A DNA stretch of 26,370 bases from Saccoglossus kowalevskii (lineage: Eukaryota > Hemichordata > Enteropneusta > Harrimaniidae): NCBI RefSeq assembly GCF_000003605.2, contig NW_003135341.1:408437-434806 (forward strand), in the 5' to 3' direction. The notes beneath the pieces were generated by a model. That model saw nothing but the letters and a program-made list of their open reading frames with translations. It had not been told where the DNA came from and made no database searches. Positions within the stretch are counted from its first letter, which is position 1. Every line of letters begins with the position of its first letter. The translations under genes and the position numbers were made by a program. Shown here piece by piece: positions 9,841 through 26,127 of the stretch.

Positions 9841-10845
9841 CTATACATTAGATGGGGTTCTTTGACCTATTGGGGGCGTCCTACAATACCACCCACAAAA
9901 AAGCTTAATTAGAATTTGTTCCATAGTTTTTCTATAATCTTCCTGACGAAGTCCGTACGTCATCGGTCCAATGGCCGTACTCGCGAGAGCCAGTAATGCG
10001 AGTCCTGAGATGGAGCTATCAGTTACACAATGTTGACACATCGCCGATACCTGTACTACCACAAGAAATGGTAACCACCCGACCAGTAACATTCCCAACA
10101 TGATCAACAGCGCCACCGTGCTTTTTCGTCCGGTTCGAAAATCATTTCGTCGAGTCACAGACACTTTCTGAGCGCGAATCTTTCTGGCTTCCTGTTTTGC
10201 CACGCATATAATCTTTGAGTTGAAATAGACAATGGCGACGGTGCACGGGACGACAATACCGTAGTGCGTTAAACAAATATATTCAAAGGTTGCCACGTAA
10301 CGGAACAAGCACCCGGATGTTTGCCGATTGAGGGCGACGTTGTTCCATCCAAGAAGAGGAGCAGAGCTGTACAAAAGCGCTATGCCCCACGTGACTGATG
10401 ACGTGATCACGGCTTTCCGAGACGTCATAACTTTCTGGTAGCTGAAAGGGTGGACCAGTTGGTAGTACTTGTCGAATGACGTAACAAGCATATTAAGGAC
10501 AAAGCTCATCAGTCCGACCATTTGCATAAACGTCATGCCTGTGCACGTCCAATACGTCTGACTGACCGGAAATGTCGCAAATAACCACGTGTTTATTGGA
10601 ATAGTAATTAACCCAATAAAAACACCCGCTATTGTTAGGCTGGCATAAAAATAGTTCGAAGCCGAATGCAAGTTCCTGTTGACTACAACAGCCGTGATCA
10701 CCAGAATATTAATCAAGGAAACAGCGACACTTGCCGTTGCTAAGACAACAACTCCAGGCATTGAAATAATCGGTCCCGGGTAGCCTGTAGGTGGCGCTGT
10801 GTAGTTGACGTCGTAACCAGTGGAGTTTTCTTTGAATTCTACCAT
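9841..10845 (-). CDS. Class A (rhodopsin-family) GPCR, adenosine-receptor-like, single exon
   Basis: Predicted plasma-membrane receptor of 334 residues with seven hydrophobic segments at about 29-55, 64-89, 103-128, 145-167, 189-212, 243-269 and 279-299. The N-terminus has two N-glycosylation sequons (NST at 7, NYT at 14). Cys101 and Cys179 can form the conserved TM3-ECL2 disulfide, and CQHC (270-273) resembles the ECL3 disulfide of adenosine receptors. NYF at the start of TM2 and LGWNN after TM4 also point to adenosine-like (MECA group) receptors. Departures from the class: Gly74 at Asp2.50, DKY for DRY (125-127), GWLP for CWxP (256-259), Val264 at Asn6.55, and GPMTY for NPxxY (293-297). The missing Asn6.55 argues against adenosine as ligand. 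Helix 8 ends in Cys317 and Cys321, possible palmitoylation sites. The start was chosen at GCCATGG, a strong Kozak context; an in-frame ATG 42 bases upstream (10887) is possible. An intact frame suggests a functional orphan receptor; G-protein coupling is unknown. Confidence 0.92.
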   Translation of the reverse strand: MVEFKENSTGYDVNYTAPPTGYPGPIISMPGVVVLATASVAVSLINILVITAVVVNRNLHSASNYFYASLTIAGVFIGLITIPINTWLFATFPVSQTYWTCTGMTFMQMVGLMSFVLNMLVTSFDKYYQLVHPFSYQKVMTSRKAVITSSVTWGIALLYSSAPLLGWNNVALNRQTSGCLFRYVATFEYICLTHYGIVVPCTVAIVYFNSKIICVAKQEARKIRAQKVSVTRRNDFRTGRKSTVALLIMLGMLLVGWLPFLVVVQVSAMCQHCVTDSSISGLALLALASTAIGPMTYGLRQEDYRKTMEQILIKLFCGWYCRTPPIGQRTPSNV

Positions 10846-11055
10846 GGCTAAAATGGTAAAGTAAAAGTCAGATTCAGTTACGAACATACAAATATATGCA
10901 GATAACGAGAATTCCGCGCCAAATTACATATCTCTTTTTTTTAAATGTTATGGTTTATCAATGAAACGTGAGAAATGCAGTCCCCAACTGTATTCGCGGG
11001 CATTCATGTTGTTTACATTAGTGAAACATTCTGAAATAAGTGACATGAACCTTTA

Positions 11056-11220
11056 GAGTATGTCATCAACTCTACCATTTAGTTTGAGTATGTCATCAAC
11101 TCTACCATTTAGTTTGAGTATGTCTTCAAATCAGCCATTGCGTCCGAGTGTTTTATCAAAACTGCCATTTTGTCCGCGTACAAGATCAAATCTGTCATTT
11201 ATTCGAGTACGTACGCTGTC
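11056..11220 (+). repeat. 30-bp minisatellite upstream of the GPCR
   Basis: Units begin at 11056, 11086, 11116, 11146, 11176 and about 11205, each with the frame GAGTATGTCATCAA...CCATTT. The first two copies are identical over 30 bases and the later ones diverge progressively (GAGTATGTCTTCAA, GAGTGTTTTATCAA, GCGTACAAGATCAA). Because 30 is a multiple of three, the plus strand holds an incidental open frame (11060-11272) reading repeats like MSSTLPFSLS; it is not likely a gene. The array starts about 210 bases upstream of the receptor start codon, inside its putative promoter region. Confidence 0.9.
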
Positions 11221-12399: not shown

Positions 12400-12510
12400 A
12401 ATGTGCCATATTCGTGTTAATTTGTATATGAGATGAGATCATGGAAGTATTTTTGAATATACCACTGGGATTTTTTAATTTTTGATTACATAGTTAAATA
12501 TTATTATTTT

Positions 12511-13044
12511 ATACGGTTCCGTATTTATGTTATGTAGCTCCGTCTTCACATTATGTTCCTTCTGTGTTATGCAGTTAATCCCATCTTATGCAATCTCATT
12601 GTTAAGTTATGCAGTTCCATCTTTATGTTATGCAGTTCCATCTTTATGTTATGCAGTTCCATCTTTATGCTATGCAGTTCCATCTTTATGTTATGCAGTT
12701 CCATCTTTATGCTATGCAGTTCCATCTTTATGTTATGCAGTTCCATCTTTATGCTATGCAGTTCCATCTTTATGTTATGCAGTTCCATCTTTATGTTATG
12801 CAGTTCCATCTTTATGTTATGCAGTTCCATCTTTATGCTATGCAGTTCCATCTTTATGCTATGCAGTTCCATCTTTATGTTATGCAGTTCCATCTTTATG
12901 CTATGCAGTTCCATCTTTATGCTATGCAGTTCCATCTTTATGCTATGCAGTTCCATCTTTATGCTATGCAGTTCCATCTTTATGCTATGCAGTTCCATCT
13001 TTATGTTATGCAGTTCCATCTTTATGCTATGCAGTTCCATCTTT
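12511..13044 (+). repeat. Highly homogeneous 21-bp minisatellite
   Basis: From 12609 to about 13045 there are 20 full units plus a truncated last one. The unit begins ATGCAGTTCC and ends TTTATGYT. Twenty of its 21 positions are invariant in all full units; only the penultimate base varies, T or C. Left of 12609 there are about five degraded units back to 12511 (for example ATGTAGCTCC and ATGCAATCTC), whereas the right edge is abrupt. Since 21 is divisible by three and the unit lacks stops in several frames, long open frames run in all three forward frames and one reverse frame. These read repeats such as MQFHLYA, CYAVPSL, LCSSIFM and, in reverse, MELHSIK. I treat them as by-products of the repeat. 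Confidence 0.97.
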
Positions 13045-13169
13045 GTTTATAAAATGATTAATTATGTTACCAATGCATCGCATAGATATTGCAATGGAAC
13101 TATGATTCTCAGCCGTAATAGGTTGAAGGGAATGGTAATCGATGTTCATAAACTGCGACCATTTATGCA

Positions 13170-13285
13170 AAAGAATTTGGTACATTACTGTAAAATTTCC
13201 AGATTCAAACTAATCGACCTAAAAGTTGTACCTGACATGACAACAGTCTCTCTTTGGCACAACGTGTGCAAAACTTGTGAAATTA
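13170..13285 (+). repeat. Array tail, copy 1 (paired with 14040-14165)
   Basis: Non-tandem sequence starting about 125 bases after the homogeneous 21-bp array. It shares an ordered series of blocks with 14040-14165: GTACATTA, AAAATTT.CAGATT, GACCTA, GACA.GACAACAGTCTCTCT, then GGCA..ACG..TGCA.AACTT. The order is kept over about 115 bases, so the two are homologous. With the arrays, this suggests a larger composite repeat made of a 21-bp array plus a tail. Confidence 0.75.
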
Positions 13286-13319
13286 TAGTACAATGCTATA
13301 TTATGCGGTACATTCGTCA

Positions 13320-13760
13320 TATCATATAGTGCATTGGCCATATTATGTGGTGCATTTACCATGTTATGTACTGCATTTATCAGTGGGTGGTGCATTTACA
13401 GTGTGATGTTGTGCGGTCACCATGTTATGTTGTGCATTTATTATGTGGTGAATTCATGTTATGTAATGCATTCCCCGTGTTATGTTGTGCTTTCACCATG
13501 TTATGCTGTACATTCATCATGTCATTTAGTGCATGTATTATATGATGTGGTACATTTACCATGTTGTATTTTGCGTTCACCGTGTTATGTAGCGCATTTA
13601 TCAGTGTGTGGTGCATTTACAGTGTTATCTTGTGCATTCATTATGTGGTGCATTCATCATGTCATGTAGTGCATTTATTATATGATGTGGTGCATTCATC
13701 ATGTTATGTAGCGCATTTATCAGTGTTTGGTCCATTTACCATGGTATTATGCACCTATCA
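13320..13760 (+). repeat. Degenerate ~21-bp repeat array, same family as the upstream array
   Basis: A run of diverged units of about 19-22 bases with the theme GTGCATTTACCATGTTATGT, for example GTGCATTTACAGTGTGATGT, GTGCGGTCACCATGTTATGT and GTGCATTCATCATGTCATGT. Aligned to the clean unit at 12.6-13.0 kb, about 12-13 of 21 positions agree, including TTATG, GT and the terminal ATG, so the two arrays are probably old and young versions of one family. Several open frames rich in MLC, CYV and HHVM cross it on both strands and are repeat artefacts. Confidence 0.8.
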
Positions 13761-15294: not shown

Positions 15295-15960
15295 TTACTC
15301 TAGGACAGCATTCAAAATCAGCCATTTTGAATATATATATATATATCATGATGTATAACAAATATATAAAATTTGAATATAATCAGTCAAAGCATTTAAG
15401 AGATATGGCTCTAGAAGCCCAACCATTAAAACAAAATGGCCACCAGTCAGCCATTTTGAATCCAATCTGAAAAATAAAATGATGTGCATCAGGAACCCGT
15501 AATGTCTAATGCATTTATCAAGTTTGAACAAAATCCATCCATAAATGCCAAAAATGCTTGATATTTGATGATTTTTTAGCACAAAAATGACCACCATTCG
15601 GCAATTTTGAATAGGATCGTCAAACCAATATGTCTGTATTACTATGACATGATCTATAATCAATATTTAAAATTTGAACATAATCAGTCAAAGCAAGTCA
15701 GAGATATGGCACTAGAACCACATTCAATAAAACAAAATGGCCACCAGTCGACCATTTTGAATCTTATCTGAAAAACAAAATGATGTGCATCAAGGTCATA
15801 TGATGTCTAACGTATATACCAATTTTGAAGAAAATCCACTGTAAACAGCCGAAAAATGGCCGCCATTCGGCCATCTTGAATCAGATCGTGAAACAAATTG
15901 ACGTGCATATGTATGATATCATGTATGATGTATGTGTGAAGTTTGATTGTGATTGGTCCA
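15295..15960 (+). repeat. Divergent ~150-bp tandem repeat (301-bp dimer)
   Basis: AAAATGGCCACC-like anchors occur at 15433, 15584, 15734 and 15853, with a partial one near 15312. Spacings are 151, 150 and a shortened 119. Alternate units match best: the stretch from AAAACAAAATGGCCACCAG at 15428 recurs at 15729 (offset 301), and the preceding AAAATTTGAA.ATAATCAGTCAAAG...GAGATATGG block recurs with about the same offset. This implies a dimeric 301-bp higher-order unit. Each anchor carries the inverted pair AAAATGG...CCATTTT. Open frames here are not credible genes. Confidence 0.88.
15330..15346 (+). repeat. (AT)n microsatellite
   Basis: About eight AT dinucleotides, placed within the first, partial unit of the ~150-bp repeat block, replacing sequence conserved in other units after CCATTTTGAAT. 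Confidence 0.9.
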
Positions 15961-16220
15961 GGCATTTCTGAGATAACATGGTGAATGCACGGGATAATAG
16001 GATAAATGCACAACATAACATGGTGAGTGCACAGCATAATATAAATTCACTACATGACGTGGTAAATGTACTAAATAACATGATAATACACTACGTGACA
16101 TGATGAATGCAATACTAGAACATAACATGCACAACTTAATATAATTGTGAATCTACCACATGATAAGGTAAATGAGCACATAATTGGATAAATAAACCAC
16201 GTGTTATGATGAATTTATGC
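15960..16220 (-). repeat. Inverted, degenerate copy of the ~21-bp repeat family
   Basis: On the plus strand the units read like ACATGGTGAATGCAC and ATAACATGGTGAGTGCAC. This is the reverse complement of the GTGCATTCACCATGTTAT theme at 13.3-13.8 kb. About eight to ten diverged units are present. The array directly abuts the ~150-bp repeat block on its left. Open frames in this stretch (MLCTHHVM, MLCSSIAF) are repeat-derived. Confidence 0.75.
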
Positions 16221-17501
16221 GGATATCGGAGCAATGCCCTGGGAGTAATGTTCAACAGTCTTACAAAATGTTGTTTTCAGCAAGTGATGATCAAATGTAC
16301 CTACTATTTACGCAGGGTTTCTTACTCATCATTCAATGAACACGCCAGGAATGGCCTAATAATGATTCGACGTAAGCAAACGATTTATCACATTTTGAAT
16401 TAGTTAGTTACAGTCACATGATTGCATAAATGCGCTAAGGTCACGTAAGTCATTCGTCTGGAAATGAACAATTGAATCACGGGCATTGAACGTCTGTAGT
16501 TTACACTATTGTAAACAAAGCGAACAGTCCTGAAAAGCATCCAATATAATAATAAAACGTTAATAGCGATTAAAAGAAAAGGAGTCTCAGAGGCATTTCG
16601 TTAAGAGAACTTGTCATACCAGCTCAAATGTCGATCAACCAGAAGATCATGGACCTGCATGATAGAAACGAAGTTTTTGAATCACGCTGTTTTTCAAGAT
16701 AGCTTCTCTACTTAAGTGCAGCAGTAAATGTTTATGGTGACCGCTGGTCCACTGCTGAAAGCCTGCAGATAAGGCATGAACTGTATTTATTGTAAACATT
16801 GATACGAACCTGTTGATAAAATTTAATGGTGTGTCGATATTGAGGTTGGGGACTAACATTTTCGGGTAAATACTGGGAAGGACAACTTGTTGATAGACCA
16901 CAAACCCCCCTCTTTCGTGTAGATGTTATATTTTCTAGCTTACCCACCTCAAAATAATTATTGGTCTGACCTTAATCTTCTCCATATACATTATGTCGGG
17001 TTCATGCAATGTGAACACTTTCACAACCATGGAATAATACTTGTGTCGATTTCAGTTGTCTCCACTGGTATTAGAAAAGTTGTCTCAAGTGACTGCTCAC
17101 TCTAAATGTATTAGTCCGCCATTTTAAAACGAGCTCGTTTTCGCCAAAACTTCAATCACAAACCTAAGGCTCGCCTATTCTGGTATCATATTGAATAAAA
17201 CAGAAATACAAACATGCCACCCCTTGCAACAGTTCTCAAAATAGAGAGAATTACATGCGCCTTTTTTTCTACTAGCAGTGGGAAGAAGGCCTATAAAGAA
17301 TTGTTAGAGGGGTGGTGGATGAGTGCACATTTGTCATTGAGTATCTTAAATTGAGCTTCGAGTTCAAGGTCAGTCTATTCCTATTTCTTGAGCACTGCAT
17401 AAATTAGATAAAATCGGCAATGTATTGGCGTTTTTGGTCTTTATAGCACTTCAAGTGGAGAACGGTATGGCAAGCAGTCAGGATTAACCGTCGCGGACAT
17501 A
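16221..17501. other. Intergenic stretch
   Basis: No recognised gene. Short frames at 16206-16403, 16647-16901 (minus) and 16923-17105 have no motifs. GTTTAC-ACTATT-GTAAAC near 16499 is a small hairpin. Confidence 0.5.
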
Positions 17502-17712
17502 TACTGTAAAATATGTCTTCTTAGCTAGCATGTCATTTTAGCTAATTTAGCTAATCTGTAATTTTGTTAATTCAAGATGTAGCTAATTTAACGGAAAGTA
17601 TATTCCCACAAGGAGATAGTCGACTCCTTTGCTAAATTAAGATTCCGTTAATTCATGCCAAGAGTCAAATCCGCTAACATTGGATGCAGCTATTTCAACG
17701 TGTTCTACAGTA
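17502..17712. mobile_element. MITE-like element, TACTGTA family, copy 3 (divergent)
   Basis: 211 bp, starting TACTGTAAAATATG and ending CATGTTCTACAGTA-like sequence (CGTGTTCTACAGTA), so it shares terminal TACTGTA and overall length with the two elements near 24 kb. The interior differs, with repeated GCTAATTTAGCTAAT and GTTAATTC motifs, some inverted (AGCTAATTTAACGGAA against TTCCGTTAATT). It is probably a different subfamily using the same type of ends. Confidence 0.65.
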
Positions 17713-21465: not shown

Positions 21466-23686
21466 CAGACATACCTACGCTTCTTGGAATATAGTAAACC
21501 CCCTAGCAGAATGAAAATAAATACAACAAGACTAATCCAAGAATAATGTCATATGTTGAAGCAATAACAACATACAATATTTCAACCGAATTGTCTCGTA
21601 TGTTTAATTTCATCATGATGCGACTTTTTTGTAAACAAACATATATCCCAAATCCGGCCCATGCTTACACGTGACATGGTGGAAGAGTTCCATTCACATG
21701 ATCGGCCGCTTTGCTGAAACGTGAGCTCGGACTCTCGGCAGCTGTTGCAACAGTACTTCGCCTGATAACACGAAACTGTCCCCGAACATTAAAACCCCAC
21801 TTACAAATAACTTTGCTAGTTCAAACATTCGCTGTTCGCTAGATTATCTCGACTAATAAAAGCGTTGACTATTTGAGCAATCGTGGACGCGAATCAATCA
21901 TATCAACCTTAATTAGAATATGTCGCGAGGGAAGAGATGTGATATTGCGTAGACTTACAACACGGGTGTGTAATACTCGCTATAGGGAAGTGTTCTCTTC
22001 CCCTCTCGAGTACAATTAAATTCACATGGCACTGTTCTCTGTAAAATAGCGACCCTAATGTATCAACATACACATACAACTATTGAAAATGTTGAAGAAG
22101 GCATCATCATTGACGTGGTTACCTGAAAAATATTTCCTCTGTTTTCCGGAACACGCATGTGGAACGAAGAGTTAAACAACAGATACATTTAACAGCACTA
22201 CGCAGCAAATTCTTCCTGATACCAACAGCACGAAGTGGACGTGGGAACTTACTGAAGCTCACTGATATCCAGCAATGCCGACAGGGGCGATGATAGTACT
22301 GAGGGCGTTTGATAAGCGGAAACATGTAATTTACACGCATGGACTATTAATGGGGCTCTCGCTGCGGGCGACTATGCGTGTTTAAACAGTAACAGGATAG
22401 CGTGCGGTTGTTTACCTCAGATGACAGCCACCAGGGGAATAATAACACCCCTAAGGGACGGTATTAATACAGGGATTGGACTCATTTTTGATTGCATGGC
22501 TTAATAGAATACGGGGATCAGTGTTATACATTAGGACGTGCAAATGAATACATTGTGAGTAGGTACGATGACGGAACTCTTTTTTGATGGATTACCCAAT
22601 CACGTACAACGAACATTCATTTTTAAAGTAATCATAAGCATGTCATGTTTATACAAGAGTGAAATGATTGAATTTGCACGACTTTACAACAAGCTTCTAA
22701 GCTGGGAGAGAAATGTATTAAACATGCCCTGAGGAAATCTGTGGCATCAGCGATTGTAGTCAAGGTTGAAACGCGGTCGCCTGGATGGCATGAAAGAAGA
22801 CGGCGTCTGTATTGGCCCTACTTTTGAGACCAGAACATGAATACAGACTCGTTTGGGACGCCCCCAGTGGGAGATACTAAATACACATAATACGACCATC
22901 GCCGGCAGGCAGCCATAAATCTGCAAAGCACGGTGTAATCAAATAGTAAAAATGTTGACGGGAAAGTGGAATGCTATGTGAGTTAAGAAATAAAATGCAA
23001 ACTAGAAGAGTGTAAACCGATATGATTGAGTGGTTGTAGTTCAGAGGACGGAGTGGAAGTAACATCGCTACCCCTGTGAAGTACACCATTAGCCGAGAGA
23101 CGCAGTTACTAGTACTTTACACGACTCCGATTAATGAGCATGGTGTACAGAGGGTGCCTCAATATGAAGCCACCCTACGTCACCACACTGAGATGGTGTC
23201 TGTCATAATTATATAACAGTTAAATTATATATTTACAGTAATAACACGATTCATTCAAGTATACTCACAGTAATTTGTTTTCATAGAGCGATGACATTGC
23301 AATAATTCATTACACGTGTGTACTGGTGCATGATACTGAAAGTGACGTAATCACACAAGACTCATGCCGATACTACCAGTATATTATATGGAGAAATGTT
23401 ACACGACTTAACGTTACTGTTACTCCATGATATATGTGGTTCGAGTTATTGAAGTCAAAAGCAAAAAGTACATTTTGTCCAAACCACCAAACACGCGGTG
23501 TTGGATTCGAGGGAAACGAGACGGCCTATCAGCCGAGGAGAACGAAAACTATCGACCCCGTGCACTGTTCCAACTGCCAGTGCTCGTTAACGAACTCGTG
23601 CAAAGATTTCCCAAAGGGACTGTAATTGCGATGTCCGCTAAACATTCCCGGGTAGGGGTTGCAGGCGTAAAAATGCCTCCGTTACA

Positions 23687-23894
23687 TACTGTAAAATGAC
23701 TAATTTTCACTGGGTTTAAATTTCGCTGATTTGCCGTTTCAGGCATATTCATTGGATTTTAATTTCACAGTTTTACCATTTAGATAATGTGTTCTATGAT
23801 CAATTTTACATATTCACTTGTTTTTAATACAGCACATTTTCCAGTCAGCGATATAAGCAAAATTATAACCCAGTGAATTGACACTTTAACAGTA
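23687..23894. mobile_element. MITE-like element, TACTGTA family, copy 1
   Basis: 208 bp, starting TACTGTAAAATGACTAATTT and ending TTAACAGTA. The last ~50 bases, in reverse complement, align with the first ~50 through TACTGT, AATT, CACTGGGTT and ATTT.GCT. Ends of the form TA-CTGT...ACAG-TA suggest a TA target site as in Tc1/mariner-related MITEs. It lies 235 bases from copy 2. The open frame at 23427-23699 takes its last codons and stop from this element's left end. Confidence 0.8.
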
Positions 23895-24129
23895 AGTCGT
23901 AATTAGTCATGAGTGTCGTATTATTTCAATTTTTCGAGTGTTGATGGCAATCATCAATTCTTCGGTTACGAGCCCCGGTAAAGTTACATATACAAATATA
24001 TATACGCCCACAATTTCAATTTGTGTTTCTTTATTGGTGTTAGGCGAATTTCTGTCTGCCAGTATGCACATTATTACAAACATTCACAGTCAATGTGTTT
24101 TCAATGAAGCGCTTGTTGTGATATTGATA

Positions 24130-24340
24130 TACTGTAAAATAATTTATTTTGGCTAGATTTAATTTTTGCTGAGAGGGCTTTTTTGGTGTTATGTATGGAA
24201 TTTATTTTCACTGTTTTTTGAAGAGTTGATTGTAAAATATAGGAAAATAGTATATTTGCTGGATTTTATTTTCACTCAATCATCCAAATAGTGAAAATAG
24301 CGAAAATTAATTCCAAGCGAAAATAAAAAATTTTACAGTA
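24130..24340. mobile_element. MITE-like element, TACTGTA family, copy 2
   Basis: 211 bp with terminal inverted repeats of about 25 bases: TACTGTAAAATAATTTATTT at the left, and TACTGTAAAATTTTTTATTT when the right end is read in reverse complement. The interior has TGGATTTTATTTTCACTCAATC and GTGAAAATAGCGAAAATTAA, which are themselves partly inverted. Same end sequence and size as the element at 23.7 kb. No coding capacity. Confidence 0.85.
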
Positions 24341-26127
24341 TTACAAATCAACCAGAACGCCGTGTCAGCTTATGAGGAGATTTCTGTCTATTCTTCGTGT
24401 TTTTGCATATTCGACTCTTATATCTTCATATATTTTCAAATTGATTCGATTTAATAATTATATTTTCGACTGATTAACCATCGTCGTTATTCAAAGTCCA
24501 TATCTAAACACTATTGTAACAAAACAGTTGTCTCGTGTTTATATTTGTGCATTGTTAGATCGACGATCATGTTAATAAAACGTAACTGTGTTTAAACATG
24601 TATATTTCACTTTCTAAGGTGTGTGTTTTAATATATGCATACTGGAGCAACATATTTCAAGTTTGTTTGGTAACTTGGCCCTTGAAAACTATCAAAGCTT
24701 AATATGGGAATATGCAAATTCTAAGTCTGATAACTGAAAATTCGCGGACACGTGACTAGATCAATGCAACAATTATGTAATATATATGTGACATAAAATA
24801 CTGTTTTAATTGAGAAATAATCTGCTATTCCAAAACAGGAAGTCAGTTTGTGTATCAAAATCAGCGCACAAATCACATTCTGCTCAGGCGTTTTCTTCGT
24901 CGACCTTTATTCCATGTAGTATGTCTTTTGAAGTGAATTTCCGATACTCATTATCGATCCATGAAACCGGAACAATACTATTCCAAACATTTATTATGTT
25001 CAATTTCGTAAGCAACATGTAGCCTCGTTCGCAGTTCTCCTAACGAATATGCCTACCGTCTCGTGAATACAAACAAATAACAAACACATAGAGAATTGTT
25101 GTGGTGTTTCAAATCAAATATTTAGCTGCCATGAAATGGTTTGGTAGATAAATATTTGGAGGACGGTTTTACTGATGCTGTCGCACGATTGTATGCGAAC
25201 GAGACAGCATATTATGACGTACCCTGACTAAAATTATCGCGTGCTACTGAAACCCAAAAATCATTAACTTAATCTGTTGATTGATAATCGCGTTATGATT
25301 GAGTAAAATAAATTTACTCAGGGGTGTTATGATTCAACCAATGCTTAATGAGGGTATATATTAGAGAAGGATTATAGCGATCCATCATGGATTACGTCAT
25401 GTTGTTTACCGCGATCCAATGACGTACAATGAAGTTAATGATTGACTTTATCTTATCATTCATTGTAATATCTTGTCAATCATGAGCTGGAGTTCATCAC
25501 TATATGGTTCGTCATCTCATGAGAGAAAGGGGTTCGGGTTTAAGGAAATGGCTGAGATAGGGGAATCTGGCCGATGCATTGCTCTCCAAAAAAAGGCGCA
25601 TTGCGGGTAAAGAATGTGAATAGACGATGGTCGTTTCTTAGTGCGCGTTCGAATGTATTTTTATGAGCGTTGTGTATGTTACATGGGACCCATTTCGAAT
25701 AGGACTCGCCTCGAAGACCACTGTCCATTGTACACTGAATGGCTCACTGCCGCAGCGTTCAAACCATGTTCATTATATATTTCAACGTTACGTACACCAC
25801 AAAGCACAATGTGACAGCGGATATACGTTACCGAGCCGCCCTGTAATAACGTTAACGTGTGTAGGTGTTAGCATAACGTCGTCATTTTCCATTGCATATA
25901 TATGCAGTAAACATGCAAGGCAGTGCAACTTTTGAATTTGGCGCTAACTACCTTGAACAATTGTTCTATTCTATTCTATTCTCTCAATCGGCCACTGAAA
26001 ACATACTGTAAACTTTTCTGTTTGATAAGTTTATTGATCCTGATTTGGGGAACAAACTCCGGAATAAATGTCGACAGAAGTGTGTTATAATCGTGTGATT
26101 TTTGTCGGTATCGTCGATGAAAGTTGT
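24341..26127. other. Gene-poor stretch
   Basis: The 90-residue plus frame at 25663-25935 and an overlapping minus frame at 25540-25728 are unrecognised. Three ACGT-containing CRE-like half-sites (ATGACGTAC at 25215, ATTACGTCAT at 25392 and ATGACGTAC at 25421) lie within about 220 bases. Confidence 0.5.
25963..25982 (+). repeat. (TTCTA)n microsatellite
   Basis: Three to four TTCTA pentamers followed by CTCTCAATCGG. Confidence 0.9.

Follow-up and report, generated by a model that had tools for sequence, protein, structure and literature searches.

The window analysed here is the whole stretch of 26,370 nucleotides from contig NW_003135341.1 of Saccoglossus kowalevskii (positions 408,437 to 434,806). 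Its features are collected in table 1. The single-exon open frame on the minus strand is predicted to code for a seven-transmembrane receptor of the rhodopsin family (PF00001, E 1.8e-31); among solved structures it is matched best by adenosine, muscarinic, histamine and other aminergic receptors. The window also carries a direct repeat, whose two copies are 80% identical and start 301 bases apart, and four short elements that lie in direct and inverted orientation, are 71-75% alike and perhaps represent a small interspersed element. A structured RNA was rejected as a candidate: there is no Rfam match at gathering scores and no tRNA within the window. The remainder of this report concerns the tandem arrays of 21-bp units near the middle of the window.

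Table 1. Positions of the repeats and other features found in the window.
Feature	Position	Strand	Basis or remark
Single-exon open frame, predicted receptor	9841-10887	-	PF00001
Further tandem repeat, 30/60-bp period	11056-11170
Decayed left edge, about four diverged 21-bp units with indels	~12500-12603	+	sequence; matches to other satellite loci
Edge unit, one mismatch (site 2) to the T type, T at site 4	12604-12624	+	unit alignment
Homogeneous 21-bp array, 20 full units ATG[T/C]TATGCAGTTCCATCTTT	12625-13044	+	TRF and unit alignment
Two-state site, unit position 4	12628, then every 21 bases to 13027	+	order TTCTCTCTTTCCTCCCCCTC
Old, strongly diverged array of the second family, period 21/42, consensus near ATGTTATGTAGTGCATTYAYC	13298-13747	+	TRF
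Direct repeat of 213 nt	15342-15554 and 15643-15855
Inverted, diverged array of the second family	15973-16111	-	TRF, repeat comparison, genome matches
Short elements	17501-17553, 23686-23774, 24129-24217, 24289-24341		ATACTGTAAAAT or its complement at one end

The first array is reported by TRF at 12602-13044, with a period of 21, 21.1 copies, 97% matches and a score of 802, far beyond chance. Alignment of the units, which are arranged head to tail, agreed exactly with what the earlier note had described: among 20 full units, 20 of the 21 positions are invariant and only site 4 varies, with 9 T and 11 C in the order TTCTC TCTTT CCTCC CCCTC. The two unit types, called T and C below, are interspersed. 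The range first given, 12609..13045, ends one base too far. When the edge unit is added, there are two variable sites over 21 units; when the decayed edge is also included (25 units), 18 of the 21 positions vary, and the one-site pattern is confined to the inner 20 units. On the left, matches from other satellite loci start at 12485-12504 of the window, and the decayed units, read by eye, carry T at the polymorphic site; neither this leftward continuation nor the two older arrays nearby figure in the earlier note. On the right, the array stops suddenly at 13044.

A genome-wide 21-bp satellite family

The array in the window is a short outpost of a 21-bp satellite family that is found throughout the genome. 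A T-type 22-mer, searched with at most two mismatches, has 1303 matches on the plus strand and 1011 on the minus strand of the 572-Mb genome; the pattern read in reverse, which served as a control, has 1 and 0. Three contigs, C1526 (49.8 kb), C2702 (32.5 kb) and C3338 (29.0 kb), consist of satellite over their whole length, with a coverage per kb by units of at most six mismatches of 0.96-1.00, 0.96-1.00 and 0.81-1.00, respectively. Their unit is a 42-bp dimer, ATGTTATGCAGTCCCATCTTT followed by ATGTCATGYAGTCTCGTATTT; identity at lag 42 is 0.81, 0.92 and 0.79, and 35, 33 and 40 of the 42 dimer positions are variable among the 200, 213 and 164 dimers of the first 10 kb. Shorter arrays of the 21-bp family are present at six more loci looked at (L012-L017). 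The family has marks of a satellite with dispersed short arrays: head-to-tail units, long arrays of the unit elsewhere and array-specific (concerted) variants, such as the exact C unit described below; as another example, T stands at site 13 in 21 of 21 window units and in 24 of 228 units of L009. A literature search with six 18-base probes of the 21/42-bp family found no paper in the collection searched.

The flanks of the window array have no match in nine loci compared, all matches falling within 12485-13074 of the window; three of these loci (L009-L011) are satellite throughout, which leaves six with comparable flanks, and three of the six hold N. Tandem repeats borne by Helitrons are known from oysters. 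As to a possible carriage of the present arrays by a Helitron or another transposon, the comparison covered the window's own flanks: no flank sequence is common to the window and the nine loci, or to the window and the 19 loci of the second family described below.

A genome-wide search for both variants, proposed in the earlier note, revealed that the two exact variants co-occur nowhere else in the assembly. The exact C-type unit has 11 occurrences in the genome, all 11 of them in the window array. The three satellite contigs contain 35, 1 and 7 exact T-type units (43 in total) and lack the exact C-type unit altogether. Their major unit is present in 590, 244 and 243 copies; with C at site 4 on this background there are 2, 0 and 1 copies, that is, 3 of 1080 exact units. 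With up to four mismatches allowed, units with C at site 4 number 6 among 228 in L009, 1 among 227 in L011 and 1 among 4 in L014; L010 (227 units), L012 (41), L013 (26), L015 (7), L016 (3) and L017 (15) have no such unit. Privacy to the window array holds for the exact C unit only; a C at site 4 does turn up in other arrays. Because the exact C unit is found only here, exact T units occur elsewhere and the edge units carry T, T is probably the ancestral state and C probably arose within the window array. Recent expansion from two unit types had been suggested beforehand; in place of two founding types, a single founder, of the T type, is probable.

Variation at a single site and the order of the two types

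A single mutation since the common ancestor of the 20 units is sufficient to explain one variable site, and selective constraint is therefore not needed. We simulated the tandem duplication and deletion of blocks in an array of 20 units under infinite sites, with copy number fixed at 20 and block sizes uniform. With 0.01-0.05 base changes for each exchange event, the duplication models gave exactly one segregating site with P 0.22-0.37 (the exception is single units at 0.05 changes, P 0.135); the conversion models did so with P 0.12-0.24 at 0.015-0.03 changes. At 0.3 changes per event, at most 0.010 of the simulations had exactly one segregating site, and no more than 0.0008 had one that was present in 9-11 copies. 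These models suggest either that exchanges exceed base changes by a factor that lies very roughly between ten and a few hundred or that the expansion is young, two situations indistinguishable here.

The 14 other arrays sampled, a non-random set unscreened for homogeneous inner stretches, vary at 12-21 of the 21 positions. Stretches in register offer a fairer comparison than whole arrays, since the window array taken with its edge units also varies at 18 of 21. In such stretches, there are 2 variable sites in 21 units for the window, 14 in 15 units for L013, 12 in 22 for L012 and 16 in 21 for L028. Recent expansion or strong homogenisation, two of the causes proposed for the one-site pattern, is supported, and one mutation spread by repeat turnover explains variation at one site; constraint, the third, is not, given that just one mutation is required and that the other arrays vary so widely.

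Of three further arrays compared in register, two have a comparable interspersed two-state site, which lies among a much larger number of variable sites: site 8 of L012 (14 G and 8 A in 13 runs) and site 20 of L028 (14 C and 7 T in 12 runs). Some two-state sites have fewer runs than shuffles (site 9 of L012, P 0.017; site 18 of L028, P 0.019). For the two-state sites 15 and 18 of L013, P for a run deficit is 0.06 and 0.24.

The T/C order of the window array comprises 12 runs and is no different from shuffles (P 0.77 for as few runs or fewer, 0.39 for as many or more). No lag from 1 to 6 shows excess periodicity (lowest P 0.18). T is somewhat commoner towards the left and C towards the right (one-sided P 0.048), a trend that the turnover model does not need. 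A minimum of 8 tandem duplications leads from TC to the observed order, compared with 4-9 in 300 shuffles. Any binary word of length at least 4 contains a square; all such orders can therefore be reached by tandem duplication, and the missing periodicity cannot exclude it.

The number of runs was followed in those simulated arrays that had a single variable site, present in 9-11 copies. Duplication of single units gave a mean of 2.3 runs, and 12 runs in 0 of 119 samples; conversion between nearest neighbours gave a mean of 2.0, and 12 runs in 0 of 63. With duplication blocks of up to 2, 3, 5 and 10 units, the mean rose to 4.1, 7.1, 10.7 and 12.2 runs, and the fraction with at least 12 runs was 0.032 (n=93), 0.155 (n=84), 0.414 (n=116) and 0.614 (n=127). 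For conversion with a reach of up to 2, 4 and 8 units, the means were 3.3, 6.0 and 9.5, with at least 12 runs in 0/122, 0.079 (n=76) and 0.213 (n=47) of the samples. Because the single-unit and nearest-neighbour simulations never reach 12 runs, the interspersed order argues, within these models, for the exchange of multi-unit blocks or for conversion over a long reach, and it speaks against exchange that is strictly short-range. The earlier note had taken the non-periodic order as a sign of short-range exchange rather than duplication of a block. It was right that no block duplication is visible as a period at lags 1-6, but the simulations point the other way on the range of exchange. Simulated turnover fits the pattern in its details only modestly, at about 1%: a single variable site present in 9-11 copies and arranged in 11-13 runs was reproduced at best in 0.0138 of the simulations (blocks up to 8 units, 0.03 changes per event), and with single units in 0 of 5000 at each of six rates.

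Origin of the window array

An older 21-bp array probably once occupied the locus, with the decayed left edge as its survivor. Its interior has probably been overwritten in recent times by copies of a single T-type unit, as multi-unit blocks were duplicated in tandem and deleted again and again (unequal exchange or equivalent gene conversion). During this turnover, a T-to-C change in one unit would have arisen and then been copied into 11 of the 20 units. The account starts from what is observed at the locus and in the genome, namely the satellite family, a C unit that in its exact form is private to the window array, the decay at the left edge and the random-like order; the copying process and the block size are those that the simulations suggest. 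As a whole, we consider it highly probable that an outpost array had its interior replaced by T-type copies and that a C mutation was copied in the course of turnover.

Both unit types might instead have been present in the seed, for example if it was inserted from a satellite array holding T and C, and the array might have grown from this pair. The 8 duplications that suffice from TC would agree with such an origin, as would the occasional C at site 4 on other unit backgrounds (as in L009). The exact C unit is, however, absent outside the window array in the assembly, and also from the 111 kb of satellite contigs, which makes a seed of two types unlikely. The T/C alternation could also be an artefact of assembly, by collapse or as a mosaic of two haplotypes, since short homogeneous arrays are difficult to assemble; yet the window is without N, and interspersed two-state sites are also present in L012 and L028, though the same fault is possible there. 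We give an artefact very little credence.

Selective constraint on 20 of the 21 bases, whether as a coding repeat, as the heptads of a coiled coil encoded on the minus strand or as a binding site, is very improbable. The array is indeed open throughout in three forward frames and one reverse frame, because 21 = 3 x 7. The minus frame matches 58 Pfam families at E<=1, several of them above the cut-off, the best being PF16515 (coiled-coil type, E 1.3e-09); matches of this type are expected for any seven-residue repeat with spaced hydrophobic residues, and they were judged compositional. The three forward frames, in contrast, have no Pfam match above the cut-off, and three of the four frames stop no more than about 85 bases from the array; the remaining one, 12553-13329, extends 285 bases beyond it. 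In 10 kb of each of the three long arrays, the three frames of the unit strand hold 31-126 stops, with a longest open stretch of 557 codons, as from a stop-free repeat. The variability of the 14 other arrays also stands against constraint. The coding repeat was therefore rejected, its open frames being a by-product of the 21-bp period. A Pfam scan of 10 of the 41 stop-to-stop frames of at least 75 amino acids in the window found nothing above the cut-off. Single-strand hairpins were likewise rejected as drivers of instability: four units fold no better than shuffles on either strand (z -0.95 and -0.25). A function for the window array is neither needed nor indicated.

A second family and comparison with known systems

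The array at 13298-13747 belongs to a second dispersed 21/42-bp family, with 54 genome matches at E<=0.001, two of them in the window (the direct and the inverted arrays). Among 19 further loci on 12 contigs that were compared, none has the window's flanks; seven of them hold N. At the best rotation, four TRF consensuses of this array are identical to the first array at 13, 14, 13 and 11 of 21 positions (the third in another register), with shuffle P values of 0.035, 0.012, 0.034 and 0.34; for the consensus of the inverted array, the identity is 13 of 21 (P 0.074). The blastn score against the satellite was reached by 2 of 200 shuffles for 13298-13747 and by 0 of 200 for the inverted array (15973-16148), while the scores of three control stretches of the window were reached by 152, 190 and 17 of 200. 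Two of the five relatives of 13298-13747 that were tried also align to the first array (L028, E 1.2e-20; L036, E 3.7e-08). These comparisons of sequence are good evidence, short of conclusive, that the second family is probably related to the first.

A 12-bp core, ATGTYATGYAGT, seems to be kept between the two 21-bp families, and the 9-bp tail differs. In 11 of 15 arrays, the tail has diverged more than the core: this holds for all 8 first-family arrays besides that of the window and for 3 of 6 second-family arrays, the first array of the window itself being an exception. Since the core was delimited with the arrays already in view, and since the long arrays are dimers, its conservation is a lead and nothing firmer. 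Constraint on the core, for example as a putative protein-binding box like the CENP-B box, while the tail drifts, appears very improbable. If it were true, the arrays of the window would be functional binding platforms.

The minisatellite MS32 (D1S8), mapped by MVR-PCR, has two interspersed repeat types. The same is true of other minisatellites mapped in this way, such as human D7S21, and of the window array, which differs from them in sequence and organism and is known from one assembled sequence. MVR mapping reads arrays of two randomly interspersed unit types (PMC2363947; PMC2599865), and by analogy the window array behaves like these two-type minisatellites. In human MSY1, a Y-linked minisatellite, the order of repeat types records turnover, with length changes and conversion-like events (PMC2599865). 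The window array resembles it in that its repeat-type order may serve as a record of turnover; the MSY1 types, however, form blocks, (1)15(3)42(4)20 in the progenitor allele given there, whereas those of the window are interspersed. According to another paper (PMC10048060), it is common for short arrays in euchromatin to share their sequence with a satellite. The layout described there, with short dispersed and long arrays of one unit, is also that of the present family, although the unit here is 21/42 bp; Drosophila 1.688 and Tribolium TCAST are examples of such systems.

The 21/42-bp satellite family is documented here, and views on repeat evolution are unchanged by it. The window array offers a clear natural case of concerted evolution under way, in which a probable ancestral unit is found together with a private variant at intermediate frequency, and the order of T and C permits a guess at the size of the blocks exchanged.
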